Shown here: piece by piece, positions 28,316 to 52,523 of the stretch
How the letters are laid out: each line of letters begins with the position of its first letter
Numbering within the stretch: the stretch's first letter is position 1
Assembly: GCA_024224155.1 (NCBI GenBank)
Contig: JAAENP010000364.1
Location: 62,001-126,000, forward strand
DNA length: 64,000 nucleotides
DNA from: a bacterium
GTDB lineage: Bacteria; Acidobacteriota; Thermoanaerobaculia; Multivoradales; JAHEKO01
Reading direction: 5' to 3'
The notes under the pieces: generated by a model
Databases searched by the model: none
The model's input: the letters and a program-made list of their open reading frames with translations, nothing else
Told to the model about the DNA's origin: nothing
Position numbers and translations under genes: made by a program

Positions 28316-29254
28316 ATGCCTCACGTCACTTTCATCCACGGCATAGCCAACAAGCCCGAGGCCGATGCGCTCTTGAGCATCTGGCGAACCTCGCTCGCTC
28401 GCGACGACGGCCTCGATCTCGGTGCTGAAGGCGTCACCTCGAGCATGGTCTATTGGGCCGACGTCATGTATGCCGAGCCTCAGCCCGACATGGCCGAGCA
28501 CGAGAGCAACGACAGCGTCATCGCCAAGACCGACGACGACATCGACATGGGCTGGCAGGAGGAACTCGAGGCCGATGAGAAGAGTTGGGCGGACAGCCTG
28601 GCCAAGAAACTCAACTTCGACGCCGAGCCACCGGAAGGCGACGAAGACTTCGCGCCACCTGAAAGCCAAATGGAGTCGGTCGACTTCGAACGCATCCCGC
28701 TCCCCTGGTGGCTCAAGCGCCGGATCATGAAAGCCTTGCTCAAGGACGTCCATCACTATCTCTTCAACAGCGAAAGCACGCCAAGATCGGGCGAGACCTT
28801 CCGGGTTCAGGATGAGATTCGCCGGCGCTTCGTCCAGGCGGCGTCGGAAGGCGCCCAAAGCGGCGGTCCGCATGTTGTGTTGAGTCACAGTATGGGCACT
28901 GTCATCGCGTACGACTGTCTCAAGAGGGTCGCCGATTGCCCGCAGGTCGACGCGCTGATGACCGTAGGCTCTCCGCTCGGTCTCGACGAGATTCAGGACA
29001 AGCTTCGGCCCGAATGGAGTCGCGACAATGGATTCCCGGCCAAAGTCATGGCCGCGAGCTGGGTCAACGTCTACGACAAGCTCGACCCGGTCGCCGGACT
29101 CGATCCCAAGCTCGCCAACGACTATCGGCGAAACGCCGACGCGATCGTCGAGGACATCAAAGAGCAGAACTACGGCAAGTGGCGCCACAACATCTCGAAG
29201 TACCTAGGCGGCCAGAAGCTGCGCGACGCACTGACGGCCCAACTCGGACTCTGA
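28316..29254 (+). CDS. Alpha/beta hydrolase (lipase-like) coupled to TPR-protease
   Basis: 312 residues. AAAGGAG lies 8 bases before the ATG at 28316, which is preferred over the upstream in-frame GTG at 28292. VTFIHGIANKPEAD is the N-terminal strand and oxyanion loop; VVLSHSMGTVIAYD is the nucleophile elbow (S192); a catalytic Asp is likely in WVNVYDKLDPVAG and the His in KWRHNISKYLG. An acidic insert (residues ~55-120) sits between the first strand and the elbow. The stop overlaps the next start by one base (TGATG), so the two products are made in fixed ratio. The hydrolase is probably an effector whose partner is the TPR-trypsin protein. Confidence 0.8.
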   Translation: MPHVTFIHGIANKPEADALLSIWRTSLARDDGLDLGAEGVTSSMVYWADVMYAEPQPDMAEHESNDSVIAKTDDDIDMGWQEELEADEKSWADSLAKKLNFDAEPPEGDEDFAPPESQMESVDFERIPLPWWLKRRIMKALLKDVHHYLFNSESTPRSGETFRVQDEIRRRFVQAASEGAQSGGPHVVLSHSMGTVIAYDCLKRVADCPQVDALMTVGSPLGLDEIQDKLRPEWSRDNGFPAKVMAASWVNVYDKLDPVAGLDPKLANDYRRNADAIVEDIKEQNYGKWRHNISKYLGGQKLRDALTAQLGL

Positions 29255-30930
29255 TGGCCCCGCCCATGACCTGGAACGACAAGAAGTTCGAAAAGGAGTT
29301 CGCAGCGGCGGTCGAGAAGTTCGATCGGCTGGAGACGGAAAACGAATGCCGTCGCCTGATCGAGCACCTGCGAGCCACTGTCGAGCCGTATGACGCGGGC
29401 GCCGCGAAGAAGATCCTCGGCCATCTCCAACGCAAGCGCTACTTCGACCTCCTCCAGCGGGTGGCTGACGCGTTCCAGCAGACCGGCCTGCGGACGCCGA
29501 GAGTCCGGCGCCAGTACGCCCAGGCCTTGCTCGATCAGGGCGGTCTGAGCGCCGCGCTGCCCTTCCTTGAGAACCTGGCCCAGGAAACCGCCAAACAGCC
29601 CGACATGGCCTTCGAGCACTCGGAGGCGAGGGGCCTCCTGGGCCGCGCCTACAAACAGATCTATATCGACACCGACAACCCCAAGAGCCCGGAGGCCCGC
29701 GACGCCCTGAAGAAGGCCATCGACGCCTACCACTCCGTCTACGAGATCGACAAGTCCGAGCACACCTGGCACGGCATCAACTCCGTCGCTCTGCTGCGCC
29801 GAGCGGCCACAGACGGGGTTCCGATCGCGGGTTTTGATGACCCCGAGAAGGCGTCGAACGAGATTGCCGAGAAGATCCTCGAGGGAATCGAAACCAAGTG
29901 GGATGAACGCAAGGCCTCGATGTGGGACTCCGGCACCGCACTGGAAGCCTGCGTCGCGCTGAGTGCGAGCCGCCCCGAAGACGAGGCCCGCGTGTGGCTC
30001 AATCGCTACGTCCGCGAGCCGAACGCCGACGCCTTCGAACTGGCGAGCACGCTACGCCAACTCGTGGAGGTCTGGCGGCTCGACGTGGAGAGCGAACCCG
30101 GAGCGAGCCTCTTGCCGGTGCTCCGTGCCGAGCTCTTGGCCCGCGAGGGCGGCGGCTTCGAGGTCAAGCCAGATCAGCTCAAGGCCGGCAAACTCGAGGG
30201 GCAGCCCGACGCGAACCTCGAGAAGATCCTCGGCAAGGTCCGCTATGTGAGCTATAAGTTCATGCTGCGGGCAATCGAGCGGGCGCGCGCGGTCAGCCGT
30301 ATCGAGCATCAGCCCGGGCAGGGATTCGGCACCGGCTTCATTGTTCGCGGCGGCGACCTTCACGACAGTCTCGGCGACGAGTTGATGTTGCTCACGAACT
30401 CGCATGTCGTAAGCGAAGACCCTCTCAACATGGACGCCCTGCGCCCCGATGCCGCCATCGTCACCTTCCAGCTGCTCAAGGAAGAGGACCGAGCCGACGA
30501 CGAGTACGCGGTCACGGAGCTGGTCTGGAGCTCACCTCCCGGTGAACTCGACGCCAGCCTTTTGCGCCTGGAGAAAGTGCCCGACGGGCTCGAGGCCTAC
30601 CCGGTAGCTCCGAGGCTGCCGCTTGCCGACGGTGACCAGCGCGTCTATGTCATCGGCCACCCCAAGGGTGGATCGCTCTCCTTCTCGATTCAGGACAACG
30701 TGCTGCTCGATCACGAGGCTCCGCGACTGCATTACCGAGCTCCTACCGAGGGCGGTAGCTCCGGCAGCCCGATCTTCAACTCGCAGTGGAAGCTCATAGG
30801 ACTCCACCACGCCGGCGGCAAGGAGATGCTCAGGCTCAACAGGAAAGAGGGCACCTATGACGCCAACGAGGGTCTCTGGATCCAGTCGGTCCGCGAGAAG
30901 ATGAAGGCAGATCCACAGAAAATTCTCTGA
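29254..30930 (+). CDS. TPR-S-like domain fused to trypsin-like serine protease
   Basis: 558 residues from the ATG at 29254. Residues ~20-285 are helical repeats including FEHSEARGLLGRAYKQIY, DALKKAIDAYHSVYEID and the diagnostic-looking TWHGINSVALLRR, matching the TPR-S/TRAFs-binding style. Residues ~350-550 are a trypsin-fold protease: GFGTGFIVRGG, NSHVV with H384, ELDASLL with D433 and TEGGSSGSPIF with S503, then GLHHAGG. The triad looks complete. Such TPR-protease proteins are inferred to be caspase-like executioners or activators in conflict systems; the adjacent lipase is a plausible substrate. Confidence 0.88.
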   Translation: MAPPMTWNDKKFEKEFAAAVEKFDRLETENECRRLIEHLRATVEPYDAGAAKKILGHLQRKRYFDLLQRVADAFQQTGLRTPRVRRQYAQALLDQGGLSAALPFLENLAQETAKQPDMAFEHSEARGLLGRAYKQIYIDTDNPKSPEARDALKKAIDAYHSVYEIDKSEHTWHGINSVALLRRAATDGVPIAGFDDPEKASNEIAEKILEGIETKWDERKASMWDSGTALEACVALSASRPEDEARVWLNRYVREPNADAFELASTLRQLVEVWRLDVESEPGASLLPVLRAELLAREGGGFEVKPDQLKAGKLEGQPDANLEKILGKVRYVSYKFMLRAIERARAVSRIEHQPGQGFGTGFIVRGGDLHDSLGDELMLLTNSHVVSEDPLNMDALRPDAAIVTFQLLKEEDRADDEYAVTELVWSSPPGELDASLLRLEKVPDGLEAYPVAPRLPLADGDQRVYVIGHPKGGSLSFSIQDNVLLDHEAPRLHYRAPTEGGSSGSPIFNSQWKLIGLHHAGGKEMLRLNRKEGTYDANEGLWIQSVREKMKADPQKIL

Positions 30931-31291: not shown

Positions 31292-32602
31292 TCAATTCCT
31301 CGCTAGCCCCGCCTCGCGGCAGATCTCGAACGTCATGACCATGTCGCCTTCGTCGTTCATCGAGAGGTTTGTCCTGCTGAGGCGATAGTTCCGGCCGCTC
31401 TTTGTCAGCACGTGCGGAATCCCGAGGCCCATCAAAAGGCCCCACTGATCGTCAGGCGCCACCGATTCGATCAGGTTCTTCACGCCTATCCGACTAAGGT
31501 CTCGGCCAGTTTTGACATCCTTTCGTGCCGCAAAAAAGACATCCAGGACCGCCGGGGCCCAGTCTCCGAGCCGAGGGCTCGAGCCGGGGACGACCGCGAG
31601 ATAAGCGAACAGGGCTTCCGGCTCGGGTTCGTCCAGATCAACTTCTACCAACTGCCCCTCATAGACAGTGAATCCGCCCACCTCATCGCATTTCGGTAGC
31701 TCATCGCTGACGCTTGCAGCCAACGAGCCGGCCCGTTTTCGAAACTCGGTTTCCCACTGTTCAAAGATCGGCAGGTACGCTCGGTACTTGTCGAACTCCT
31801 GCAGGATCTCCAACAGCCGGGCTTCTGTCCGAGCCCTCGCCGCCTGGCCCTCGATTACCCGGGTCTGCACCAATTGATACGCGGCTTCCGCTTCCCCGCG
31901 AGCGACGTTTGCCTCGACGGTGGCTTCGTCGGCCGCCAACGCAGCTTCGTCGGCGGCCTCTTTCAAGGTGAAGATCCAAGCAGCCAATGCAAGCACGGCC
32001 AAGAAGGCCACAGCCAAGCCAATCGCAAACCTGCCTGTCCGCCGGAGGCGAGCAGCCCGCTGCTTCTCCTGTTCCAGCTCCTGTCGATAGAAACTGTCCC
32101 CACTCGGGATGATCGCGCCGAGGAACCGGGCCCGCACCCGCTCGTCGAGTGAGCGGCGCTCCTCGTCCGACAGACCGTCCCATTCCTTTTCGATGAGCTG
32201 GATCCGCTGGGCGTTGGGCCATTTGTTGGCGATGGAGTCTGGGACATAACGTGCTTCCTCGTCCAGGGGGTCGACGAGGATCGGCGCCATCTGCCGATGC
32301 TCGAGCCACCAGTCGAGTTCACGATGCACCCAGTCCTCTCGGCCTTCGTTGAGCTTCGCCCCTGGCGTACAGATAACGATGATCGCGCGCGCGCGCTTGA
32401 GATAGGGCTCGTGAACGGCCGTCCAGTCCTCTACCCCGGGGGCCGCTTGATCAAAATAGACGTCCAGTTTCGGAGGCGCGTCTTGCGGGTCGGCCTCCTT
32501 GGGCAGGGGGACAGCCCGATCTTGCAGAAGCTCGTAGATCCGAGCAGCGGCCGTCATGCCGTCAGCCTGACGATAACAAATGAAGACCGGCCAGTTGTTC
32601 AT
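31292..32602 (-). CDS. TIR domain-TM-coiled coil protein
   Basis: 436 residues. The TIR domain spans ~3-115: PVFICYRQAD, the LDVYFDQAAPGVEDW loop, ARAIIVICTPGA and DWVHREL with E95 as probable catalytic Glu. A charged linker follows. One TM helix lies at ~191-212 (FAIGLAVAFLAVLALAAWIF), followed by an Ala/Glu-rich coiled coil (~215-290) and a ~140-residue C-terminal domain of unknown family with a GxxVLTKSGRNYRL segment. The TIR is predicted cytoplasmic with the C-terminal part across the membrane: an outside-in or envelope sensor driving TIR activity (inference). The gene stands alone, convergent with the protease gene. Confidence 0.85.
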   Translation of the reverse strand: MNNWPVFICYRQADGMTAAARIYELLQDRAVPLPKEADPQDAPPKLDVYFDQAAPGVEDWTAVHEPYLKRARAIIVICTPGAKLNEGREDWVHRELDWWLEHRQMAPILVDPLDEEARYVPDSIANKWPNAQRIQLIEKEWDGLSDEERRSLDERVRARFLGAIIPSGDSFYRQELEQEKQRAARLRRTGRFAIGLAVAFLAVLALAAWIFTLKEAADEAALAADEATVEANVARGEAEAAYQLVQTRVIEGQAARARTEARLLEILQEFDKYRAYLPIFEQWETEFRKRAGSLAASVSDELPKCDEVGGFTVYEGQLVEVDLDEPEPEALFAYLAVVPGSSPRLGDWAPAVLDVFFAARKDVKTGRDLSRIGVKNLIESVAPDDQWGLLMGLGIPHVLTKSGRNYRLSRTNLSMNDEGDMVMTFEICREAGLARN

Positions 32603-37395: not shown

Positions 37396-38769
37396 ATGCC
37401 CAGCAGAGAGCCCACCGAAAACTGCCGCATCTTCGTCAGCCGCAAACAGAGCGATCGCGACGTGTTCGGCAAAGAGATTCAAGAAGATCTGGAGACCATC
37501 GGGGCCGGACGCCTGGAGTTCTTCGACGACACCGACATCGAATTCGGCGACAAGTGGCGACAGAAGATCCGGGAAGAGCTCGACAAAGCCAACGTCCTGT
37601 GGCTGGTCTTGACCAAGCCCGCCAAGAAAGAGTTCGATTGGCCGCTCTATGAAGCGGGCCTGTTCGAAGACCTGGAAGACGGAAGCCAGGAAAGGGTGGT
37701 CTGTCTGTTCCCCGACGAGGGGAAGTGCCCGTCCCAGCTCAACGAGCGCCAGGCCGTCAAGGCCAACCCCGACAGTCTCTTCAAGCTGCTCAAGGACCTG
37801 TTTACGAAGAAACACTTCAGTGGCACCGTCCAGCCGCTCAATCCCAAAGCAAAGGACAAAGACCTCCAAGCAATCGCAAAGAAGATCAGCGATCTGGTCA
37901 ACGGGATCGCCGACCCCAACGAGATCAGGAGCGTCTCCCACGGCAACAAATGGATTGAGCTCGTCTGCCCCAAGAGCCTCGATTCCCTGAGCCCCGACGT
38001 CGAGGTCGAATCGGACGAGCGCTCCCTCGGAGACCTCTTCGATCTCCAGCCGAAGCCCGTTCGAGGGGAGACCTGGAAATGGTCGCAAATTGAAGAGGCG
38101 GCCAAGCTGGAAGGCGACCCCAAGGGATACAACCTGCTCTGGATCGAAGAGCTTCGAAACGAAATCGCGGCCAAAATGAACCCAGACCCAAAGCATCGGC
38201 ACCGCTCGAAGCAGCTCACCGGACGCTATCTCGGCAAGGACGGGAAACTCTATCGGCCGGAGATCGAGCTCTGTCGAGAATACGCGGACGGCAGATTGAA
38301 ACTCGAGCTGACCTTCTCGGAGCAGGTGCACGGTTCCTGGCTCCGGCCCACCCCGCTCGTGGCGCTCGCTGCCATGATCAACCTCGCGAGCCGCATTCGA
38401 CACGACCTCATCGAGCCGCATCTCAAGAAGCTCCCGCGGTGGCAACTGCGCGACGACAACCAAGCCCGATTCGAGCAGCTCAACTCGCTCAAGGAGTCGA
38501 TCGAGCGGGACGGCTTCTTCATCAACATGTTGACCCAGGAGGCCTTCCTGGAGGCCTTCGACGGACACCCGGATGAGAACCTCAGGGTCGCCAAGCTCCA
38601 ACAGGAGTTTGGCAAGACCATCGAACCTCAGCTCAGGAAGGCGGTGAGTGACCTGGACGTCGAGCTCACCCAGAAAGCCCTCCGGGCATGGAAGGAGAAC
38701 AACCGAGAGTTTCTCGATATCGGGATCAACGTCTACCGGAGGGGTCTGGGCCTCGAGGAGGCCGCTTAA
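37396..38769 (+). CDS. TIR-domain protein with unknown C-terminal domain
   Basis: 457 residues; GGGAGT sits just before the start. Residues ~9-150 are TIR-like: CRIFVSRKQSDRD, the RLEFFDDTDIEFGDKW loop, NVLWLVLTKPAK and DWPLYEAGLF with E86 as candidate catalytic Glu, then VVCLFPDEG. Residues ~165-457 are mainly helical and of unknown family (TWKWSQIEEAA, GRYLGKDGKLYRPE, PTPLVALAAMINLASRIRHD). The C-terminal domain probably senses or oligomerises. It follows the TonB receptor by 5 bases and precedes the protease-nuclease gene by ~190 bases. Confidence 0.83.
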   Translation: MPSREPTENCRIFVSRKQSDRDVFGKEIQEDLETIGAGRLEFFDDTDIEFGDKWRQKIREELDKANVLWLVLTKPAKKEFDWPLYEAGLFEDLEDGSQERVVCLFPDEGKCPSQLNERQAVKANPDSLFKLLKDLFTKKHFSGTVQPLNPKAKDKDLQAIAKKISDLVNGIADPNEIRSVSHGNKWIELVCPKSLDSLSPDVEVESDERSLGDLFDLQPKPVRGETWKWSQIEEAAKLEGDPKGYNLLWIEELRNEIAAKMNPDPKHRHRSKQLTGRYLGKDGKLYRPEIELCREYADGRLKLELTFSEQVHGSWLRPTPLVALAAMINLASRIRHDLIEPHLKKLPRWQLRDDNQARFEQLNSLKESIERDGFFINMLTQEAFLEAFDGHPDENLRVAKLQQEFGKTIEPQLRKAVSDLDVELTQKALRAWKENNREFLDIGINVYRRGLGLEEAA

Positions 38770-38879
38770 ACGAGCTTGGAGAGTCTCTGGAACCCGAGTT
38801 CCGTGGCGATGTGGCCGAGGAGCTGAGCGCCAAGTTGGGTCCTAACTACAAGTTGTTTCGCAAGGAAGGGGATCTGTAG
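38688..38879 (+). other. Coding-like extension overlapping the TIR gene in another frame
   Basis: After the TIR stop, a different frame runs NELGESLEPEFRGDVAEE and ends KLFRKEGDL at 38879. Its acidic/hydrophobic periodicity looks like real protein rather than shadow. It could be the displaced C-terminus of the TIR protein after a frameshift near 38755-38769, or a small separate gene starting at the overlapping ATG 38688. Confidence 0.3.
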
Positions 38880-38960
38880 AGCCTCGGAACACAGAGCAAG
38901 TCAGCCCGCGGCGTCTGCCGCATGTCAACTCACTTTCGCAGACGGGATATAGCGACTACC

Positions 38961-41087
38961 ATGACTGCCAAGCACGACTTTTCTACTCTCACCATCGCTG
39001 ACCTGCTCGAGGCCAGAGACGCCTACCACCGCCACACGACCCATCTCCCCACGATCGTCGGCACGGGTATCGGGCGCTACCTGATCCGTCGCGACGATCC
39101 GGACTTCAAAGAGCCGTCCACCGGGCGCGAGAAACCCAGAGACGAGGTCCGCACGCTCCAAAACTCGGACCTTACGTCCTGGTCCGACCCCTGCGTTCTG
39201 GTCTTCGTAAATAAGTGGAAAACACCGGCCGAGCTCCAAGACAAGCCCGAGCAGTACGTTCCATCGAGGCTCTACCTGCCCGACGATCGGGTGATTCCGA
39301 CCTGCGTCGTACTCGCCACGCCGGAGGCGGTTCCGGGCGAGGCGATTGCCGATATACATTTCGCGCCGCAGCTTCTGGGCGGCGGCTATCCGATCCTCTC
39401 CGAAGTGCAGGGCCAGACCCGGATGGGCTCGGTGGGCTGCCTGGTGACCGACGGACACAGCGTTTTTGCCCTCACCAGCCGGCACGTCGCCGGGCCCGAG
39501 AATCAGCCGTCCTACACCGTGATTCACGGCGAGCCCTATGAGGTCGGCGAGTCGAGAGAGCCCTCGGCCGCCCTGATCAAGTTCTCGAAGGCCTACCCGG
39601 GATGGCCCGGCTTTCGGACCCTGCTTCAGCTCGACGCCGGGCTCGTGCGCGTTCACAACCTCAACGAGTGGACCTCCCAGGTCTACGGAGTGGGCGAAAT
39701 CGGCCCGTTGGTGGATCTCGATCCGGACTCCTTCTCGCTCGACCTCGTCGGCCGCAACGCTAGGGCTTTCGGCGCGGTCTCCGGGTCGATGACCGGCCGG
39801 ATCTATGCCCTCTTCTATCGCTACCGCTCGCGCGCCGGGATCGATTTCGTTACCGACTTTCTGATCGGTCCGGCGGTGGCCGGCGGCTCGCTCGGAACTC
39901 ATAGGGGCGACTCGGGCACGCTCTGGTTCTTCGATCCTCCCGAGGACGACGGCAAGTACCGGCCCTTCGCCGTTCAATGGGGCAGCTCGAGCTTCGATCT
40001 GGCGGAGGAAGAGAGCACGTCGTTTGCCCTGGCGAGCAATTTGACGATCATCAGCCGCGAGCTGGGCGTGCGGCTGGTCTCCGACTGGGAGACCGGTCTC
40101 CCCGAAACTTGGGGAAAGCTCGGGCACTACGAGGTGGGTGCCAAGGCCTGCGACCTGGTCGCCCACCCCAAGCTCTACAAGCTGCTCCAGGAGAACAAGG
40201 AGCTGATCGGGCTTTCCGACGACGACCGCTTGACCAAGAAGTTCCCCAAGAGCAAACAAGCGGCCTTCATTGCGCTCGCCGACGTTCCCGACCTGTGGTG
40301 GAAAACCTATCGCGGCAAGGAAAAACCCAGCCACTTTGCCGACATGGACGAAGAGGGCCAGGGCGACTTCCAGGGCGAAACGCTCATGAGCAGGTACCTC
40401 GACGACCCCACGACCCTCGACCCGGCGACCTGGCTCGCCTTCTACCAGAGCATCGGCACCGAGCAGAAGTACCAGGGATCACTGCCGTTTCGCGTCCAGC
40501 AGTTCTACGAGGAGATGGTCGGTTTCGTTCGCGACCGAAAGATCGCCGAGTACGTGGCGGCGGCGGGTATCCTCGCCCACTACATCGGCGACGCCGCACA
40601 GCCGCTCCATACCTCGCGTCTTCATCACGGCCATAACGAGAGCGAGGCCGGCGTGCACGCGCAGTACGAAACCAGCATGGTCGAGCGATATCGCTCGGAG
40701 ATCGTCCAGAAGCTCAACGAGAGGCTCGAGGGTTGGCAGATCGCCTCGAGTTTCAGCGGCGGACGGGCGGCGGCTCGAGCGACGATCGATCTTGCGTACG
40801 ACGCCATCGATCTGTTATCTCCGGAGGAGATCATCGATTCCTACAACGCGGCGGGCGAGGGCCTGCGGCGAAACGAAGATCTCTGGAGAGACCTCGGAGA
40901 GGCGACGCTCGACATACTCGAGCTCGGGGCGTTCTATCTCGCAGAGATCTGGGAGAGCGCGTGGCTTGAGGGTGGAGGCAATCAGGTCGCGCAGGCCGAG
41001 CTCAAGAGAATCTCCAAGACCAGGCTCATGAGCCTCTACAAGAGGAAGACCTTCCTCGAATCGAAGTGGCTCGAAGAGATGGTCTAG
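38961..41087 (+). CDS. Trypsin-like protease fused to S1/P1-nuclease-like domain
   Basis: 708 residues from ATG 38961; an in-frame ATG at 38922 adds 13 residues and cannot be excluded. Residues ~135-375 are a chymotrypsin-fold protease: MGSVGCLVTDG, LTSRHVAG with H175, LLQLDAGL with D225 and HRGDSGT with S318. Residues ~381-640 carry the zinc-ligand pattern of the S1/P1 nuclease/phospholipase C fold: TWGKLGHYEV, ALADVPDLWW, SHFAD (H458) and LAHYIGDAAQPLH (H540, D544, H550). The order protease then nuclease suggests self-processing or joint destruction of protein and nucleic acid (or lipid). No signal peptide is visible, so both act in the cytoplasm unless released. Confidence 0.85.
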   Translation: MTAKHDFSTLTIADLLEARDAYHRHTTHLPTIVGTGIGRYLIRRDDPDFKEPSTGREKPRDEVRTLQNSDLTSWSDPCVLVFVNKWKTPAELQDKPEQYVPSRLYLPDDRVIPTCVVLATPEAVPGEAIADIHFAPQLLGGGYPILSEVQGQTRMGSVGCLVTDGHSVFALTSRHVAGPENQPSYTVIHGEPYEVGESREPSAALIKFSKAYPGWPGFRTLLQLDAGLVRVHNLNEWTSQVYGVGEIGPLVDLDPDSFSLDLVGRNARAFGAVSGSMTGRIYALFYRYRSRAGIDFVTDFLIGPAVAGGSLGTHRGDSGTLWFFDPPEDDGKYRPFAVQWGSSSFDLAEEESTSFALASNLTIISRELGVRLVSDWETGLPETWGKLGHYEVGAKACDLVAHPKLYKLLQENKELIGLSDDDRLTKKFPKSKQAAFIALADVPDLWWKTYRGKEKPSHFADMDEEGQGDFQGETLMSRYLDDPTTLDPATWLAFYQSIGTEQKYQGSLPFRVQQFYEEMVGFVRDRKIAEYVAAAGILAHYIGDAAQPLHTSRLHHGHNESEAGVHAQYETSMVERYRSEIVQKLNERLEGWQIASSFSGGRAAARATIDLAYDAIDLLSPEEIIDSYNAAGEGLRRNEDLWRDLGEATLDILELGAFYLAEIWESAWLEGGGNQVAQAELKRISKTRLMSLYKRKTFLESKWLEEMV

Positions 41088-41178: not shown

Positions 41179-43938
41179 TCAGCTCGTCGGCCGCGGCACG
41201 ACCGCGTCGAACTGCGCAAGCGGCTCCTCCCAGTCCTTGCCGAGCCAGCTCCAGAGGGTCGCTGCCTCCTCTTCCTGGAGCCATTGGTTCCGCGCGGGCT
41301 TGCAGAGTGCACGGCTCGAGCGTTCCTTCTGATCGGCGGCAAAGACCAGATCGATCACGTCGAGTATCTCTGTGGTGTCGAGCGCGATCGGCTTGCTGGA
41401 TCGGTACCAGAGGTCGGGGTCGGAGACTTTGATCTTCTTCGGCATCTGCCAGTGCGTCCCGAAGGCGGTGCGCAAAGCGGTGGGCATGGGCAGATAGACG
41501 ATCTCGACTCGGGCGCCACCCCCCTGCTCTCCGTAGGCCTTGCCGACGTCTCTCAGAAGCTCCGCAATCAGCTTATTGGCCATCTTGGCCTTCGCCGCAC
41601 CCACAGCGCCGAGGCCACGGTCTTCTTTGTAGAGCGGGCTCGACAGACCGGAGGCCTCAGCCACCAGAATCTTGAGGTCCGGAAGCTCGTAGGCCTGCCC
41701 CTCGGCCTGTTCCAGCTCGGCCTTGAGAGCCAGGAGCAGGCTGACGACGCCACGGTTCTCGACGGCGCCGCCATCGGTCACCCAGTAGCGGTTCGCGGTC
41801 TTCCCGGACCCCACCTGCACCAGGGCGTTGGAAAAGACCGGCGGGAAATTCGCCGAGAGCGAAGCCGCGGTATTCAGGGGCACGTCGGCGTTCTTGACGA
41901 CCACGTATTCGAAGTCGAGCGGCCAGCCTCGGCCGCTCGCGGCAGGGCCGTTCCTCTTCGCCTCCTCGCAGGTCCGGTAGCGCTCACGCGTTCCCGTCAT
42001 CGAACCGACGTTGGTCAGAACCAGGCGACTTCCGGTCCGCCTCAGGGTGCCACACTTGTGTTTCGGCCGATCGGCCGCCACGCAATCACAGTCCGCCGAC
42101 ACCCCCTCTTCCCACGAGCCGGTGATGGCGGTGTTGAAGATCACTCCGAGCTCGTCGAGGCAACCCAGGTGCGTACACGCTCCGCCCGGGGCTGACGCGC
42201 CAAAGAACTTCCTTTCGAAGCTCTCGGTCAGAAGCTCTCCGAGCCGGGTCCCGGTTACCATGCGCCACTCGCCGACTCCGGAGAGCACCTGGTGAATGTA
42301 GCGCTCGGCCATTGCCTCACGAAAGCCGCACCAGTCCGCTGGGCTCCCTTCGAGAAGCTCGTCGCGGTGGCCGGCAAAGTAAGCCACTCCGGCGCTTCCG
42401 CCCGAAACGCTGCTCAACAGCACGACGCGCTCCAGAGCGTCTCGGCGGTGGAGCTCCCGCAGTACCTCGTACGCCCAAAGGGCGGCGCGCGTGCCGCCGC
42501 CCGAGGCCGCCACCGCAAAGGAGGTCTGTCCCTTCGGAGCCGATTCGAGGGCTCGAAGCAGCTCGAAAGAGCCCCCTTGGGTCTCGGCGGCCACAGCCTT
42601 GGCCCCGTACGCCGGCTCCTGACCGAGGTTGAACACCAGCCAACCACTGCCCACGATCACTGTGGCGACCACGAGGGCCGGAACGGCGGTATAGAGCCGG
42701 ACCTTCTCCTCGAGCGTATCGAGGCACACCGCGACGTTGTCCGCCTCCCGCCAATTCGCCGGCTCCGTACGCGCACGACCCACGAGCTGCCTGTGAATGC
42801 GCCTAAAAACCTCCAGGGGCTGGTAGCTCTCGAACTCCCACTCGTGGCCGCTGGTTTCGCTCGCCGGCCGAATCGCAATGAAGCGGCCCGCGCCATGAAT
42901 CTGCAGATGACCGGCGCTATGGACTTCATCTTCCTTCCCGTAGGGCAGCCGATGAGGATGCTCGTCCTCGCCCTTGTGAAGAAGGCCCAAGAGCACCTCC
43001 GCCAGTGCTCGCTGCCGCCAGTAATCATAGAGTCCGAAGATCAAGTAGAAGATGACGACCAGACCGACGATGATCGTCCACGATGCCTGGTCGAGTACCG
43101 TGGTCACATAGCTCACGCCGGCGATTCGAGCCGCGGCGAGAATGATCACAAGAAACGACACCGCTCCCGGCCAACCCACGAGAAACGCCTGCCGAAGCAG
43201 GATCTGGAAGTACTTGAGCCGGTCCTCGTAGTGGGCGGCCGCAAGCAGCGCCCAGGTCACGACGAGCGTGCTAATAGAAACCAGCTTGACGGCTCCGACC
43301 GGTGCGACCAGCAGTGAGAACGAAGGAAACAAGACCAGCAGAAGCGGTGACGTAAGCGGCACCAAAAGGAATGCGCGGAGAATCCGAACCGGGCGATTGG
43401 GCGGCTTCACCGACGGGGGCTTGACGTAGAGCTGAGTCTTCCCGAGGTGCGGAACGAAGCACTTACGGAACGTTTCTCGCAGGCCCTTGCGCGCGATCAG
43501 CCAATCGGCCCACCAGCGGCACGCCGGCATCCCGAGGGCAAGAACGAAGACCGCGAAAGGACCGAAGACGTGAAAGTACGGATCCGAAGACCACGCGCGG
43601 TTGCTGCCGCCGAGAGATAGCAGCCCGACCGCCACAACCAGGAGGACCACCAGAACCCACTGGATCTGCGGCATCAGTCGCTTTTTCAGCCAACGGCACG
43701 CCAGCACGTGCGCGGCGATGACGGCGGCACAGAAAAGGCCGAGCAGCCATCCGCGCGGGCGAAGAGCGCCGTAGGCCAGCGCCACCAGGAGCGGGATCGG
43801 AAGCCACAAAGCGAGGGGTGAATACCCCTCGAGGAACTTCCTTCGGTGAAGAGCGGTGTGGTCGATCCGGCTATGCCGCAGATCGAGCCAACGCAGGGCG
43901 GCATCGAGCTTCTTGGGAAACAAGTAGATGAAAGACAC
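41179..43938 (-). CDS. Multi-TM protein with C-terminal patatin-like phospholipase
   Basis: 919 residues from GTG 43938, with GGAGGAG 4 bases upstream. The N-terminal ~350 residues hold several hydrophobic segments (for example PLLVALAYGALRPRGWLLGL, WVLVVLLVVAVGLLSL and LLLVLFPSFSLLVAPV), and another lies near residue 430. The patatin domain follows: oxyanion GGGTRAALWAYE at ~477, nucleophile SGGSAG at ~512 and catalytic DGGAVENRG at ~721. It is likely a membrane-embedded phospholipase able to degrade the cell's own inner membrane when activated. Convergent with the protease-nuclease gene. Confidence 0.88.
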   Translation of the reverse strand: MSFIYLFPKKLDAALRWLDLRHSRIDHTALHRRKFLEGYSPLALWLPIPLLVALAYGALRPRGWLLGLFCAAVIAAHVLACRWLKKRLMPQIQWVLVVLLVVAVGLLSLGGSNRAWSSDPYFHVFGPFAVFVLALGMPACRWWADWLIARKGLRETFRKCFVPHLGKTQLYVKPPSVKPPNRPVRILRAFLLVPLTSPLLLVLFPSFSLLVAPVGAVKLVSISTLVVTWALLAAAHYEDRLKYFQILLRQAFLVGWPGAVSFLVIILAAARIAGVSYVTTVLDQASWTIIVGLVVIFYLIFGLYDYWRQRALAEVLLGLLHKGEDEHPHRLPYGKEDEVHSAGHLQIHGAGRFIAIRPASETSGHEWEFESYQPLEVFRRIHRQLVGRARTEPANWREADNVAVCLDTLEEKVRLYTAVPALVVATVIVGSGWLVFNLGQEPAYGAKAVAAETQGGSFELLRALESAPKGQTSFAVAASGGGTRAALWAYEVLRELHRRDALERVVLLSSVSGGSAGVAYFAGHRDELLEGSPADWCGFREAMAERYIHQVLSGVGEWRMVTGTRLGELLTESFERKFFGASAPGGACTHLGCLDELGVIFNTAITGSWEEGVSADCDCVAADRPKHKCGTLRRTGSRLVLTNVGSMTGTRERYRTCEEAKRNGPAASGRGWPLDFEYVVVKNADVPLNTAASLSANFPPVFSNALVQVGSGKTANRYWVTDGGAVENRGVVSLLLALKAELEQAEGQAYELPDLKILVAEASGLSSPLYKEDRGLGAVGAAKAKMANKLIAELLRDVGKAYGEQGGGARVEIVYLPMPTALRTAFGTHWQMPKKIKVSDPDLWYRSSKPIALDTTEILDVIDLVFAADQKERSSRALCKPARNQWLQEEEAATLWSWLGKDWEEPLAQFDAVVPRPTS

Positions 43939-45382: not shown

Positions 45383-48300
45383 ATGGCGCGACTGCCCACG
45401 TCCAACGCTCTCGGGATTCTCGGTAATTCCAAACTCGGCGCGCTCTACGAGAAGGTCGAAGCGCTCGACCGCAACGTCGGCACGCAGGCCTTCGAGCTCG
45501 AGATCTCGGGTTTTGAGAAGGCGGGCTCGGTGTCGGTCTTCGACGAAGTGGTCGACGTGACCGGCAACGTGAGTCTGGAGCCGGTGTTGAAGATCCACGC
45601 CTCGAGCCAGAAGCTGAGCGACCTCTTCGGCAGCGGCGCCGAGTTCAAGGCGCCCACCGGCTCGAGCTTCGCCGACTTCGGACTTACGATCGGCGCGAAC
45701 GTCGGGGCCGAGGGGACGGCGTCGACCGGAGCCCTGAAGATCTCCGCCAAGGGCTCGGTCGAGACCGGGATCGACTACCGGCACCTGCTGCCGGTCAAGA
45801 CAAACACCAAGCGGCTGACGGCGTTCAACAACCTGCTCAAGACGACGCGCCCGCCGCAGCTCGTAGATCTCAGCAAGAACGTGAACAAAGGGGGTTTGGC
45901 CGACGGCGAGATCCACCGGCTGGACGCCACCCTGAACCTCGATTTCGGCCTGGACGCAGAGTTCGGCCACAGCTTCGCGCTAGACACGTCGATCGAGCTC
46001 TTCGACGGCCTGCCGTCGGCGAAGGTCACGGCCAGCGGCGAGATGGCGATCAAGGCCGCCTTGGGGCTGTCGCTGCACGAGCGCATGCTCCTGGCCATCG
46101 GCCGGTCGGATCGATGGGCGCGGGTGCGGCTTCAGCGCGAGCGCGAGCGGCGAATCGGCTTCAGCGCCATGATGGCGCTCCAGGCCGAGTATGACTTCGG
46201 CGGCGGCCTGGCAACGGTGCTCGAGCAGGCGCTGGGCCAATCGCCGATTCCGCGGCTGATCGACTCGCTGCGCGAAGTCGACGCCGTGGCCGCCGGTGAC
46301 TGGGAGACCATCAAGACGAGCCTGACCGGGGATGTGGCCGACGCTGTGGGCGAGTTCGTCAATGACACACACTGGAAGGAGTGGCTGGCGGGCTCGAACA
46401 AGGTGAAGGGCCTACTGGAGGCCAGCCGGGAGATCGTCGAGTTCTACGACAAGGAGGTCGAGCCCTTCGGGGCGAAGCTCGAGAGCTTCTGGGATCAGCT
46501 GCTCGGCAAGGCCGACCTGTCACCGGGCTCCAAGATCCGGACGGCTCTGAGCCGGCTCACCGGCCTCGACGATCCGGACCTGGAGATCGGCGACCTGGTC
46601 GATCTTTCGAGTGAGGCCGCCGAGGCGGTCGACCTGATCGAGACCCTGAGCGGCAAGAGCCTCGAGGAGCTCCTCTTGTCCTCGGACTCCGGCATTCGAA
46701 AGACCCTGGCCGATGTGGCCGGGCTCGCCAAGAAGGCCGAAGAGCTCTTCGACCTGGACAACAAGGTGATTGAGAAGATTCGGGCCTTCACCGAGCGCAC
46801 CGGGATCGCCGGCACCATCGACAAACTGCGCCAGGTGCAGACCAAGGAAGAGCTCGAAGCGGCCATCAGCGCTCGCCTGCGGAAGCTGATCGAGCGCCTG
46901 GCGGGCGAGGCTTGGGACAAGATCAGCGCGGCGGACCTGAAGAAGATCCAGAGCTGGGCGCAGAAGATCAAGAACCTCCTCGACGACGCCGAGGGGCTTC
47001 AGGCCGAGATCCTGCAGAAGATCCGAGAGATCCGCGGCGAGATTGGGTTTTCGCTGGGTCTGGAGATCTCGCGTGTTTCGACGAGCACGGCGCTCATCGA
47101 CGTGGACATCGACCTGGAAACGGAGAAGAAGTTCCGCAACAAGGTGGAGCAGAGGCTCAAGGGCGCCGAGGTGCGCAAGCTGCTTGACACCCTGGCCGAG
47201 CGGGTGAACGAGGAGAAGGCCGGGGCGCTGCCGTTCCGGCTGCGCGAATGCGCGTTCACCTCGCGCCGTGTGCGCACCAGCTCGATGTCGTTCGTCTTCA
47301 AGTTCCTCGGCCCGCTGGGCAAACTCCTCGGAAACCAAAAGGGCGTCAGCCGCCGAGTCGAGGAGGCGAACCTCCGGGTCCGCCAGGACGGCAAGAAGCT
47401 GTTCAGGTCGGCGACCTACAACGGCGGTTTTCAGCGCACCGAGATCTGGAACAAGACGACCAGCGAATCGGCCCTCTGGCTCGAGATTGAGGCGGCGGAC
47501 ACAACGAAAAGCATGCCGAGCCTGGAAGCGCCTTTCGAGAAAGAAACCTCCCGCACACTGCGCGCGACCTATTCGCGCGAGGACAACGAGACCACGGCCT
47601 CGGAGCTCGCGGCCCTCAAGCCCCGGCTCGAGAGCCTAGGCTTCGTCGGCGGTTCCGGTCTGGCCGACGTGCCCGCGCTCGCCCAGACGCGCCTGGCCTT
47701 CGACATTCGGCTGCCGGGCGCGGCGCTGAGCGAATTCTGCGCCGGCGTCGCCAGCGAATCGAGCTGGAATCGGAGCTACTTGGGTGCTTCTAGAAGCTGG
47801 TTCCACGATCAGCTGGTCGACAAGCGCTTCAAGGACTTGAACCTCGGCGACGTCTTGGCAACGGTCGTCAAGACAAACAAGTTCCTCGACAACTGGACGA
47901 AAGACATCAATGCCTTTGGCAAAGCGCTCAAGGGAGAGTGGGACATCCCCGTAGCTGGGCAGCAAGTCGAGATCCAGCCCATCCTGTCAGCCGCCGGCAC
48001 CAATCAGCCGAGATTTGCTCCCAACTTCGATCCGATTCTCCAGGTCTACCGGAGGCGCAAAGGCTTTAAGGCTGTCGGCAAGCTGCGGCTGGCCCTCGGT
48101 ACCGGCCCCACTCCCACACCGGCTGCCTATCGCGAGGCAACTCGCGCCAGCGCGAACGGCTGGCGAAAGGCCACGGCCTGCTCGGTCGAGTGGCCGACGC
48201 CGACCTTCGGCATGTGGCTCTTGATGACCCGGCTGGCGGAGTCCGACACGAGGCAGCTGCTGCGCCAGGCGACCGGGGTGGCCACGCTGCGCTGGAAGCA

Positions 48301-48385
48301 GTCCGACGACTGGAAGGGTCCCGTGACATGGCGCCTCGAGGAGGGCAAGGGAGTCACGCCTCCCGGGACTCTGGTGATCGGATAG
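45383..48385 (+). CDS. 1000-aa protein of unknown family with long helical middle
   Basis: GGGAGGAG lies 5 bases before the ATG. No signal peptide is seen. Residues ~35-230 are rich in alternating Ser/Gly/Ala beta-type sequence (NVSLEPVLKIHASSQKLS, GLTIGANVGAEGTAS). Residues ~330-620 are helical with strong coiled-coil character (DLIETLSGKSLEELLL, KKAEELFDLDNKVIEKIRAF, LDDAEGLQAEILQKIREIRGE). The C-terminal ~380 residues are mixed and contain a Trp-rich end. I recognise no enzyme motif. It has its own promoter-like element and converges with the TIR/patatin operon, 80 bases apart. It could be a scaffold, a large toxin or an envelope-spanning protein; unresolved. Confidence 0.8.
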   Translation: MARLPTSNALGILGNSKLGALYEKVEALDRNVGTQAFELEISGFEKAGSVSVFDEVVDVTGNVSLEPVLKIHASSQKLSDLFGSGAEFKAPTGSSFADFGLTIGANVGAEGTASTGALKISAKGSVETGIDYRHLLPVKTNTKRLTAFNNLLKTTRPPQLVDLSKNVNKGGLADGEIHRLDATLNLDFGLDAEFGHSFALDTSIELFDGLPSAKVTASGEMAIKAALGLSLHERMLLAIGRSDRWARVRLQRERERRIGFSAMMALQAEYDFGGGLATVLEQALGQSPIPRLIDSLREVDAVAAGDWETIKTSLTGDVADAVGEFVNDTHWKEWLAGSNKVKGLLEASREIVEFYDKEVEPFGAKLESFWDQLLGKADLSPGSKIRTALSRLTGLDDPDLEIGDLVDLSSEAAEAVDLIETLSGKSLEELLLSSDSGIRKTLADVAGLAKKAEELFDLDNKVIEKIRAFTERTGIAGTIDKLRQVQTKEELEAAISARLRKLIERLAGEAWDKISAADLKKIQSWAQKIKNLLDDAEGLQAEILQKIREIRGEIGFSLGLEISRVSTSTALIDVDIDLETEKKFRNKVEQRLKGAEVRKLLDTLAERVNEEKAGALPFRLRECAFTSRRVRTSSMSFVFKFLGPLGKLLGNQKGVSRRVEEANLRVRQDGKKLFRSATYNGGFQRTEIWNKTTSESALWLEIEAADTTKSMPSLEAPFEKETSRTLRATYSREDNETTASELAALKPRLESLGFVGGSGLADVPALAQTRLAFDIRLPGAALSEFCAGVASESSWNRSYLGASRSWFHDQLVDKRFKDLNLGDVLATVVKTNKFLDNWTKDINAFGKALKGEWDIPVAGQQVEIQPILSAAGTNQPRFAPNFDPILQVYRRRKGFKAVGKLRLALGTGPTPTPAAYREATRASANGWRKATACSVEWPTPTFGMWLLMTRLAESDTRQLLRQATGVATLRWKQSDDWKGPVTWRLEEGKGVTPPGTLVIG

Positions 48386-49884: not shown

Positions 49885-51168
49885 TCAAGTGCCTGCCTCA
49901 CCCAAGTGACCGAAGGCTTGAGCCACCAGCGAATACTCGTCATCCGAGGGTCCGAGGTGCTCGAGAAGCAGCCTCGCCTGACCCCATGTGCTCGCATGCG
50001 AACCCATCTCTTGCGCGGCCATGCTCACGGCGTCGCGGTAGAGGCGTCCAGCTGCCTGGTAGTTACCCTTGATGAGCTGGGCCTCCGCTACAGTCGCGGT
50101 CATCCAATAGTCGCCGTCCTTCTTTTCCGTACCTACAATTCGCTCGACCTTCTCCGCATAGTCGTTCCCGGCATCGAGCTCATCCAGAAACACACTCTTC
50201 GCGGCGGCGTTGATGCCGGTGTAGTAGTCATTCGGAGCATTCTCGAAGGCCTGTGCGTAGAGGTCCCGGGAGCGGCGCAGGTGGTTCTGGTCCGAGCTCT
50301 TCTTGTAGCTGTCCATCCAGGTCCGCGCCAGAATGCCGAGAGTCTCGGGATCCTGCTCTCCCAGCTCGCGGAGCTCCTCGAGCTCGAGCTGCGCTTGTTG
50401 CCAGTTCCCGGAGCGGGCAAGTGCCAAGCCCTTCAGTTGCTGAACGCGCAGGCTCTTGGGAAAGCGCGCCTTCAAGACCTCCAGGCTCTTGAGTGCCTGC
50501 TCATAGGCGCCGAGCTTGACCAGACCTTCTACTATTCCGCAGCCCAGCGCGGCCGTCGTTTCCCAGGCCAACCCACCGGAGTCCGCCAACTCCAGAAGAC
50601 GATCGCGAGAGCCCGCAGCCACCGCAGCCTTGATTCTCGCCTCCGAGCGCCGAGCTTCCTGGTCCACCTCAGCGGCGAGCCTGACGGCAGCTGCCGGCAA
50701 AGGCTCACCGTGCAGGCCGTAGAGAAGGCGTAGGAGCCCCGCTCCCTGTGGCCCGCCCATCAGATCGGAGAAGTCGATCCAGATCTTCTGACTCGCGAAC
50801 ACCGGCAGGTCAGCGCGGTCGAGTTTGGCAACTACATAGCGAAAGCCGTCACCGCTGCTCTCCCGGGCCTCGAAGGTCCGATACTCCTTCTTGCACCAAT
50901 CCGAGTCGGCGGCGTCCGTTGACCAGATCAAAACGCCCGAAGCGCTATGCTCGAGATTCTCTTCGAGTGCTGCGATCAGGTTCTGATCCGCCGAAAGAAC
51001 GTACTGGTCCAGAAAGACCTCGTACTCGAGGCTCCGCAGCACATCGTAGAGCTGCAGCACCCAGGCGCGATTGACCGATCGATAACTCAGGAACACATGC
51101 CACTGCTGGCCCTCTTCGAGCTCTGGCGGCTTGGGTGCGTGTTCTAACCACTTTTTCAAGGAACTCAT
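49885..51168 (-). CDS. TIR domain fused to TPR-S-like sensor
   Basis: 427 residues; AAGGAG lies 6 bases before the ATG. The TIR is at ~22-130: WHVFLSYRSVNR, YEVFLDQYVLSADQNL, ASGVLIWSTDAADSDWC and CKKEYRTF with E95. Residues ~185-300 are TPR helices. The C-terminal ~130 residues show YYTGINAAAKSVFL, DYWMTATVAEAQLIKGNY and SHASTWGQARLLLEHL, the hallmark style of the TPR-S/TRAFs-binding domain known from bacterial conflict proteins and animal ASK kinases. It is predicted to couple ligand sensing to TIR NADase activity. It lies 42 bases after the patatin gene and 108 before the 3-TM gene in one operon. Confidence 0.88.
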   Translation of the reverse strand: MSSLKKWLEHAPKPPELEEGQQWHVFLSYRSVNRAWVLQLYDVLRSLEYEVFLDQYVLSADQNLIAALEENLEHSASGVLIWSTDAADSDWCKKEYRTFEARESSGDGFRYVVAKLDRADLPVFASQKIWIDFSDLMGGPQGAGLLRLLYGLHGEPLPAAAVRLAAEVDQEARRSEARIKAAVAAGSRDRLLELADSGGLAWETTAALGCGIVEGLVKLGAYEQALKSLEVLKARFPKSLRVQQLKGLALARSGNWQQAQLELEELRELGEQDPETLGILARTWMDSYKKSSDQNHLRRSRDLYAQAFENAPNDYYTGINAAAKSVFLDELDAGNDYAEKVERIVGTEKKDGDYWMTATVAEAQLIKGNYQAAGRLYRDAVSMAAQEMGSHASTWGQARLLLEHLGPSDDEYSLVAQAFGHLGEAGT

Positions 51169-51210: not shown

Positions 51211-52368
51211 TCATGGCCGTTGCCTCTCAGGAAGGTCGAAGCCGCGAGGAAAGTCCTGCGGTTCGATCTGCTGGGCCGCCGCCTTATTGCCGATCTCCTC
51301 TAGCGGTGCGAGATTCCTGGGATTGGCCATGTCCGGAAGGCTGCGCTCCTCGGCTTCGGTGATGTCTATTCCCAGATCCTCTTTGAGCCACTTCCGATCG
51401 AACCAGACGTTGTAGCGCTGGTAAGTCACCAGCGGTTGCCCGGTCAAGAGGTCCGCGGACAGGTCGCCTACCTCGGAGTCAATCTTCCAGGGGGTCCGGC
51501 TCTCGGACAACCACTGCAGCAGAGTCTGGTCCAGCCAATCGCAATCCGCCCGAAGAGCCGAAAGCGACGTAATGCCATCATAGAGGGCGAGCTTGGTCTT
51601 GATCGTCGATGGGTTCAAGTTCGGGTTGTCCATCCCGGTCCCCACTGACGTCAGCAGGATCCTGTCGGCGCCCAGCTCCCAATTCAAACGGAACCCCTCT
51701 AGCGTTGCCATCAACAACAGCTGGAGTGCGGGGTTATTGTGTGGAGTGACCCCGCCGTCTACGAACCTCCCCTCCACGCCGCGAGCAATTCGCAGCTTCT
51801 CCGGACGGAAGAACGTCGGCGCAGCGGTGCTGGCCCTGACCACCTGAGCGAGGTTGTACTTGGAGTTGGGCTCGCGCGAGGAGGAGCCCGAGCTGAAGTA
51901 CTTGCCTCTCGGGTTATTGTGGATCACCCAGGGACTACCCGTATCCCAGCGTTTGGTCATGATCATCAGGCCGGTCGTCAGCCTCGAATCACCGAGCTCG
52001 AAGTCGAAATGCTCATCCAGGTAACGCCGTAGGGGTCCGGCTCTGAACTTGGCGAAGACCAGGCCCTTGCGCCACCATTTCTTCCGAAAGATGTCTCTAC
52101 CGAAATCCCGGTAAAGATCCTGGAGTGTTTCCACCGCATAGCCCTTCGCGAGACCGGCTGCGATGATCGCGCCGGTCGAGGTCCCGCCGATGAGATCGTA
52201 GTAGTCGCTCAGCAGGAGGTCCGCGTTTTGGTGACGCTCGCGAAGCTGCTCTTCCAGGAGCTTCAGATACGAAAGTGTCAGCATTCCACGAATGCCACCA
52301 CCATCCAGGGCGAGGATCCGTTTGGGACCCTCTCCAAAGAGATGCTCGTCACGAGATCGCCTCGGCAT
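51211..52368 (-). CDS. Patatin-like phospholipase (CapV-like)
   Basis: 385 residues from ATG 52368, with AGGAGG 6 bases upstream; the TTG two codons earlier is therefore rejected. Complete patatin signature: ILALDGGGIRG (oxyanion hole), GGTSTGAI with nucleophile S64 and FVDGGVTPHNNPA with D204. Length and domain content match CapV/patatin effectors that degrade membrane phospholipids. No cGAS/DncV-like cyclase lies nearby, so activation by the co-encoded TIR-TPR protein is inferred instead. Confidence 0.92.
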   Translation of the reverse strand: MPRRSRDEHLFGEGPKRILALDGGGIRGMLTLSYLKLLEEQLRERHQNADLLLSDYYDLIGGTSTGAIIAAGLAKGYAVETLQDLYRDFGRDIFRKKWWRKGLVFAKFRAGPLRRYLDEHFDFELGDSRLTTGLMIMTKRWDTGSPWVIHNNPRGKYFSSGSSSREPNSKYNLAQVVRASTAAPTFFRPEKLRIARGVEGRFVDGGVTPHNNPALQLLLMATLEGFRLNWELGADRILLTSVGTGMDNPNLNPSTIKTKLALYDGITSLSALRADCDWLDQTLLQWLSESRTPWKIDSEVGDLSADLLTGQPLVTYQRYNVWFDRKWLKEDLGIDITEAEERSLPDMANPRNLAPLEEIGNKAAAQQIEPQDFPRGFDLPERQRP

Positions 52369-52523
52369 ACTCAACCTCCTTTGTCTGCGGAATCTTCTGT
52401 TTCCGGATGACCCGGGTACAAAGACCGGCCATTTCCCACTCCGTACGAAGGTCCAAGGAGCTTCGCAAGCTTCTGTGTAAGAATACCATAGGCTCGAAGC
52501 ACCCCCGTAGCGATGTGAGACTC

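Follow-up and report, generated by a model that had tools for sequence, protein, structure and literature searches.

Listeria broad-range PC-PLC and Bacillus cereus PLC are zymogens, in which removal of the propeptide exposes an N-terminal Trp. The first residue of mature S1/P1 nucleases is a Trp that binds zinc through its main chain. In the S1/P1 nuclease SmNuc1 nine ligands have been described (Trp27, His32, Asp71, His88, His141, Asp145, His151, His175 and Asp179), of which the N-terminal Trp27 coordinates the zinc cluster through its main chain (PMC11705217). In the Hachiman and AVAST systems, partner trypsin-like proteases unmask MBL pro-nucleases (Tuck 2025, PMC12799240), and in the NucA-trypsin conflict systems a nuclease and a trypsin-like peptidase are fused or co-encoded (Kaur 2020, PMC7159879). 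A further protease, NAL1, is described as plant-specific (PMC12915138).

The window analyzed in the present study is a stretch of 64,000 nucleotides from a member of the Acidobacteriota. It carries a gene in which a NAL1-like protease is joined to a zinc hydrolase of the S1/P1 fold (see table). The fusion of a protease to an S1/P1 nuclease, as originally predicted, was borne out by a single intact ORF that matches the Pfam families Nal1_C and then S1-P1_nuclease. The first ATG lies at 38922, and an in-frame alternative (M14) at 38961; inspection by eye revealed no clear ribosome-binding site for either candidate, and a start at 38961 is equally possible, since the conserved sequence begins near residue 20. 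Residue numbers used here are those of the original prediction plus 13 (its H175, D225, S318, H458, H540, D544 and H550 are H188, D238, S331, H471, H553, D557 and H563). The forward-strand stretch between the stop codon of the TIR gene and the fusion gene (38770-38879) looked protein-like by eye in another frame, and is possibly a small gene or a remnant.

Table. Features of the fusion gene and its surroundings (positions in the window)
Feature	Position	Strand	Basis or remark
NAL1-like protease / S1-P1-fold zinc hydrolase fusion gene	38922..41087	+	721 aa, intact ORF, Pfam, 29 full-length homologues
NAL1-like serine protease region	38979..40091	+	aa 20-390; phmmer and Foldseek to rice NAL1
Catalytic His188	39483..39485	+	30/30; aligned with NAL1 His
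Catalytic Asp238	39633..39635	+	30/30
Catalytic Ser331 in GDSG	39912..39914	+	30/30
Predicted disordered linker	40092..40109	+	aa 391-396; proposed cleavage Thr396-Trp397
S1/P1-nuclease / zinc-PLC-fold domain	40110..41084	+	aa 397-721; Pfam, hhalign, AF2, PDB fold matches
W397-G-x-x-G-H402, predicted zinc ligands	40110..40127	+	W397, H402 30/30; counterparts of the Trp1 main chain and of His6 in mature S1/P1 nucleases
D454, H471, predicted zinc ligands	40281..40334	+	29/30 and 30/30; spacing 17 as in SmNuc1 D71-H88
H553, D557, H563, H579, E583, predicted zinc ligands	40578..40670	+	HxxxDxxxxxH ... HxxxE; 30/30 each
TIR-domain gene, upstream of fusion	37396..38769	+	TIR_2 2.6e-7; not shared by other loci
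Convergent patatin-like phospholipase gene	41179..43938	-	Patatin 6.6e-7
Second patatin-like phospholipase gene	51211-52374	-	
TIR-like gene	31292-32602	-	weak, below cut-off
Alpha/beta-hydrolase-TPR-S gene	21008-22381	+	
TPR-S-trypsin gene	28936-30930	+	
TIR-TPR-S gene	49885-51168	-	

The protease half had been labelled trypsin-like. A serine protease with a His/Asp/Ser triad was indeed found, and the label can be refined to specifically NAL1-like. Nal1_C matched residues 160-356 (39399-39989) with an E-value of 1.2e-13 and 51.4 bits, above the cut-off of 26.1, and the sole convincing sequence matches in the PDB were to rice NARROW LEAF 1 (4.7e-11, phmmer). The same half matched rice NAL1 by fold (Foldseek, E 9e-21, TM by target 0.7-0.8). 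In the AlphaFold model of the full-length fusion (pLDDT 84.9) the NAL1 match spans about 390 columns, suggesting that practically the whole chain up to residue 390 is NAL1-like, and the His/Asp/Ser triad is aligned to that of NAL1. By profile and triad, this half is a NAL1-type serine protease, and its proteolytic activity is predicted from sequence. Standalone bacterial NAL1-like proteases were also seen at three of the loci examined (L047, L054 and L067), several of them with signal-peptide-like N-termini.

For the second half, the HMM search did return the expected S1-P1_nuclease match (residues 397-579, 3.9e-5), which begins at profile position 1 with W397, but its 24.0 bits fall under the curated cut-off of 29.5. 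Zn_dep_PLPC matched residues 443-592 weakly (0.0022, 18.4 bits, cut-off 26.8). Across the family, 22 of 29 members match S1-P1_nuclease (best 1.4e-7), and 13 of 29 match Zn_dep_PLPC weakly (best 3e-4). Compared as a family with standalone S1/P1 enzymes, the C-terminal half gave a probability of 97.9 and an E-value of 5e-13 (hhalign). Structure prediction of this half alone (AF2) produced a confident fold (pLDDT 94.6), in line with the domain originally proposed. Its best PDB fold matches were Listeria PC-PLC (4.9e-4, TM by target 0.68) and then SmNuc1 (1.2e-3), followed by AtBFN2, TBN1 and Bacillus PLC; no unrelated fold of comparable probability stood among the nearest Foldseek matches.

Judged by residue and spacing, all nine predicted zinc ligands, including the Trp, are present in the fusion. 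The spacings within the motifs (5, 17, 4, 6 and 4) equal those of SmNuc1, with H553/D557/H563 and H579/E583 corresponding to H141/D145/H151 and H175/D179, and the final ligand is Glu (E583) where SmNuc1 has Asp. The original ligand list was right in H471, H553, D557 and H563, but had missed W397, H402, D454, H579 and E583. Both active sites had been expected to be complete, in agreement with a triad conserved in 30/30 sequences and an essentially complete set of predicted ligands. The zinc domain of the window's protein contains only one Cys (C410), so no intradomain disulfide is possible there.

The 29 homologues collected were all full-length fusions, with 34-42% identity in local alignments. 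A profile (alignment) search of genome contigs recovered homologues; a single-protein search of the contigs had found none. They come from at least seven phyla (Acidobacteriota, Pseudomonadota, Actinomycetota, Bacteroidota, Planctomycetota, Myxococcota and Melainabacteria). Conservation was counted over 30 aligned sequences, i.e. the window's protein plus these homologues: H188, D238, S331, W397, H402, H471, H553, D557, H563, H579 and E583 are invariant, and D454 is replaced by Asn in one homologue. Thus, 11 of the 12 triad and ligand positions are among the 62 invariant columns (hypergeometric P 9e-12). In the tree of the fusions the phyla are intermixed, with Acidobacteriota in several places. 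The distribution is patchy, and four plasmid records carry the fusion, with two apparently broken copies. In Sinorhizobium (L074, 8974-11324) and Neorhizobium (L075, 9001-10975) the plasmid copies are split into several ORFs and are probably decaying. A copy on a Sphingobium conjugative plasmid adjoins anti-phage dGTPase and toxin-antitoxin genes. No match was found in phages, and a phage origin was rejected.

The joint between the two halves falls directly before W397. The fused-domain profile places this Trp opposite the first residue of the mature AtBFN2 and P1 chains of known structure, and also opposite residue 1 of standalone S1/P1 enzymes from Acidobacteriota. Of 27 such standalone relatives from the phylum, 24 have a signal-peptidase-like site directly before the Trp and 25 a hydrophobic stretch before it. 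In the fusions a signal-peptidase-like site before the Trp was found in 0/30. No signal peptide was found either, as no N-terminal 15-mer exceeded a mean Kyte-Doolittle hydropathy of 1.55, and the description of the protein as cytoplasmic-looking is upheld by these non-hydrophobic N-termini. In Mesorhizobium the fusion is immediately followed by a gene for a classical secreted S1/P1 enzyme (L030, 10335-11195), in which the domain begins at residue 29.

Residues 391-397 have a pLDDT below 50 in the AlphaFold model of the full fusion, in which the placement of the two domains relative to each other is uncertain (pTM 0.56). The residue before W397 (P1) is Thr in 15, Tyr in 14 and Arg in one of the 30 fusions, i.e. 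Thr or Tyr in 29/30, and has the lowest entropy in the linker. Part of the linker upstream of P1 is also conserved in Proteobacteria, and the conservation at P1 could have a structural cause instead. Taken together, the position of the Trp, the lack of a signal site, the disordered linker and the constrained P1 suggest that the protease has taken over the part of signal peptidase. With the first metal-binding residue exactly at the joint, activation of the enzyme probably requires a cut by the protease at this point. An internal start giving a Met-Trp nuclease was rejected, codon 396 being a Thr codon in this gene; moreover, Met aminopeptidase is not known to remove a Met that precedes Trp.

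The idea first proposed, that proteolysis unleashes a zinc nuclease or a phospholipase, is plausible, with the exposure of Trp397 as an N-terminal zinc ligand as its candidate mechanism. In the proposed sequence of events, upon a trigger the NAL1-like protease would cut the chain immediately N-terminal to W397, either in cis or between subunits of an oligomer, taking the place of signal peptidase in freeing the Trp. The freed amino group of Trp397 would then complete the trinuclear zinc site. The matured hydrolase would act in the cytosol, which is normally not the site of action of its secreted relatives, and would most likely degrade nucleic acid, or less likely phospholipid. By thus arresting growth or killing the cell, it would serve as an effector against phages or in programmed death. 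We give about an even chance to the fusion being a cytosolic zymogen that is activated by a cut just before W397 within a defence-like program. The fuller statement, that a NAL1 cap holds back an alpha-amino zinc ligand on a single chain, and that one self-cut both frees the domain and completes the metal site of a conflict or defence effector found in at least seven phyla, is given a chance slightly short of even.

The substrate class of the zinc domain is uncertain because the top Foldseek match is a phospholipase C. Sequence profiles favor a nuclease and the fold search ranks phospholipase C ahead. In an alternative reading, the same zymogen logic would release a phospholipase C attacking the inner membrane from the cytosol. 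The slight lead of Listeria PC-PLC over the S1/P1 enzymes, the weak Zn_dep_PLPC matches, the phospholipase-like patatin genes nearby and E583 all point in this direction, Glu being the residue that PLCs have at the last zinc-ligand position. Nevertheless, this reading appears unlikely, since the S1/P1 profile matches are both more numerous and stronger, the Trp-His spacing of 5 is that of S1/P1, and H471-F-x-D474 is similar to the motif at the nucleobase site of S1/P1 enzymes (SmNuc1 H88-Y89-x-N91).

Two further readings were considered. The protein could carry two independent effectors on one chain, with a protease that cuts host or phage proteins, a zinc hydrolase that works uncut and a joint without regulatory function. 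Both active sites are conserved, as this would require, and plant NAL1 degrades other proteins, namely the TOPLESS-like REL2 (PMC12915138). However, the Trp is kept exactly at the joint in 30/30 sequences, and the signal-peptidase-like site precedes the same Trp in the standalone relatives; such a position would be hard to explain without a free amino group, and independent effectors are regarded as rather improbable. We consider it more improbable still that the fusion is an exported or housekeeping hydrolase, which would serve nutrient scavenging after non-classical export and have no conflict role. Its close fold relatives are secreted, and most neighbors at the other loci are metabolic, but there is no signal peptide, and the disulfide-free zinc domain of the window's protein differs from that of secreted SmNuc1, which has two. 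The patchy distribution and the plasmid copies, including the conjugative one described above, also argue against this reading.

The conflict-gene context that had been reported for the window was confirmed, with TIR, TPR-S-trypsin, TIR-TPR-S, alpha/beta-hydrolase-TPR-S and two patatin genes within about 20 kb. It was also observed that within 30 kb the TPR-S sensor domain has another effector partner in each of three genes (alpha/beta hydrolase, trypsin and TIR), i.e. an effector swap around one sensor. Elsewhere in the window, a 1000-aa protein (45383-48385, forward strand) had no Pfam, PADLOC or NCBIfam match, and a single frame of 5756 aa (1051-18321, reverse strand), whose first 1756 aa contain many carboxypeptidase-regulatory-like repeats, encodes a giant repeat protein.

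In most other genomes the neighbors of the fusion are ordinary metabolic genes, indicating that a defence context is no general feature of the family. A partner gene conserved across loci was detected neither by BLAST clustering of neighbors nor among the 103 neighbors scanned against PADLOC and Pfam, and the fusion protein may thus act alone. The TIR gene was rejected as a partner, as the upstream TIR is not conserved at other loci. Matches to a Pycsar cyclase and to phospholipase effectors near fusion loci were single cases. A gene with a nucleotide-cyclase domain (L073, 6079-7656) lies close to the copy in Ensifer, and two copies are directly followed by a DUF3616 gene (L074, 11380-12378; L036, 10271-11305).

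The PADLOC-DB model PDLC03017 ("trypsin-like") matched 29/29 members over both domains (best 9.6e-130), and therefore represents the fusion family. It carries no description in PADLOC-DB; models with adjacent numbers are TIR-TM and MTase_I. A role as retron or DRT effector, considered because of the PADLOC name, was rejected, since a simple motif scan found no RT-like ORF near any of the 30 loci, and no paper that names it was found. The suggested defence role therefore rests on the context in the window, the Sphingobium conjugative-plasmid copy and PADLOC's unnamed model.

With this model already held by PADLOC, and no paper describing a NAL1-S1/P1 fusion found in the part of the literature covered, the family is at most barely described. 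The new point, drawn from alignment, is that W397, the match to residue 1 of mature S1/P1 nucleases, is placed at the joint with a protease. If the proposal is true, it would represent a chemically simple on-switch, in which cleavage of one particular peptide bond creates the backbone amine that serves as the last zinc ligand, and the pro-form would for that reason be intrinsically safe in the cytosol. The whole prediction rests on one bond, 396-397. If true, the proposal would also extend the protease-activated bacterial effectors by a second nuclease fold, unrelated to the first, and would assign NAL1, a developmental protease of plants, to a bacterial conflict lineage.

The fusion resembles each of its closest known counterparts in part. 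The likeness to rice and maize NAL1 covers the whole protease half in sequence, fold and aligned triad, but NAL1 lacks a zinc hydrolase and is called plant-specific (PMC12915138), whereas the fusion is bacterial. In Hachiman and AVAST a pro-nuclease is likewise activated by a cognate trypsin-like protease, as is proposed by analogy for the fusion. There, however, the MBL nuclease is encoded by a separate gene, the protease is fused to a sensor component, and internal cuts after Ile remove gating insertions; the fusion is one polypeptide with another nuclease fold, no MBL nuclease and no sensor domain found. NucA is an HNH-superfamily endonuclease, unlike the S1/P1 fold (Kaur 2020, PMC7159879), and the conflict-system papers of Kaur (2020 and 2021) mention trypsin domains but make no mention of an S1/P1 or PLC domain. 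With the S1/P1 nucleases (P1, S1, AtBFN2, TBN1 and SmNuc1) the fusion shares the fold, the nine-ligand pattern, its spacings and the Trp at domain residue 1. It differs in the disulfide excluded for the window's domain, the Glu at the last ligand and Asp457 at the position of SmNuc1 Arg74, and where the examined standalone relatives carry a signal-peptidase-like site in front of the Trp and are secreted, it has an N-terminal protease and no signal peptide. A parallel to the proposed switch is found in the phospholipases, which are also among the nearest folds of the C-terminal half. Listeria PC-PLC and B. cereus PLC are secreted with a short propeptide that is removed by a separate processing protease, whereas in the fusion the cap would be the protease itself, acting in the cytosol.
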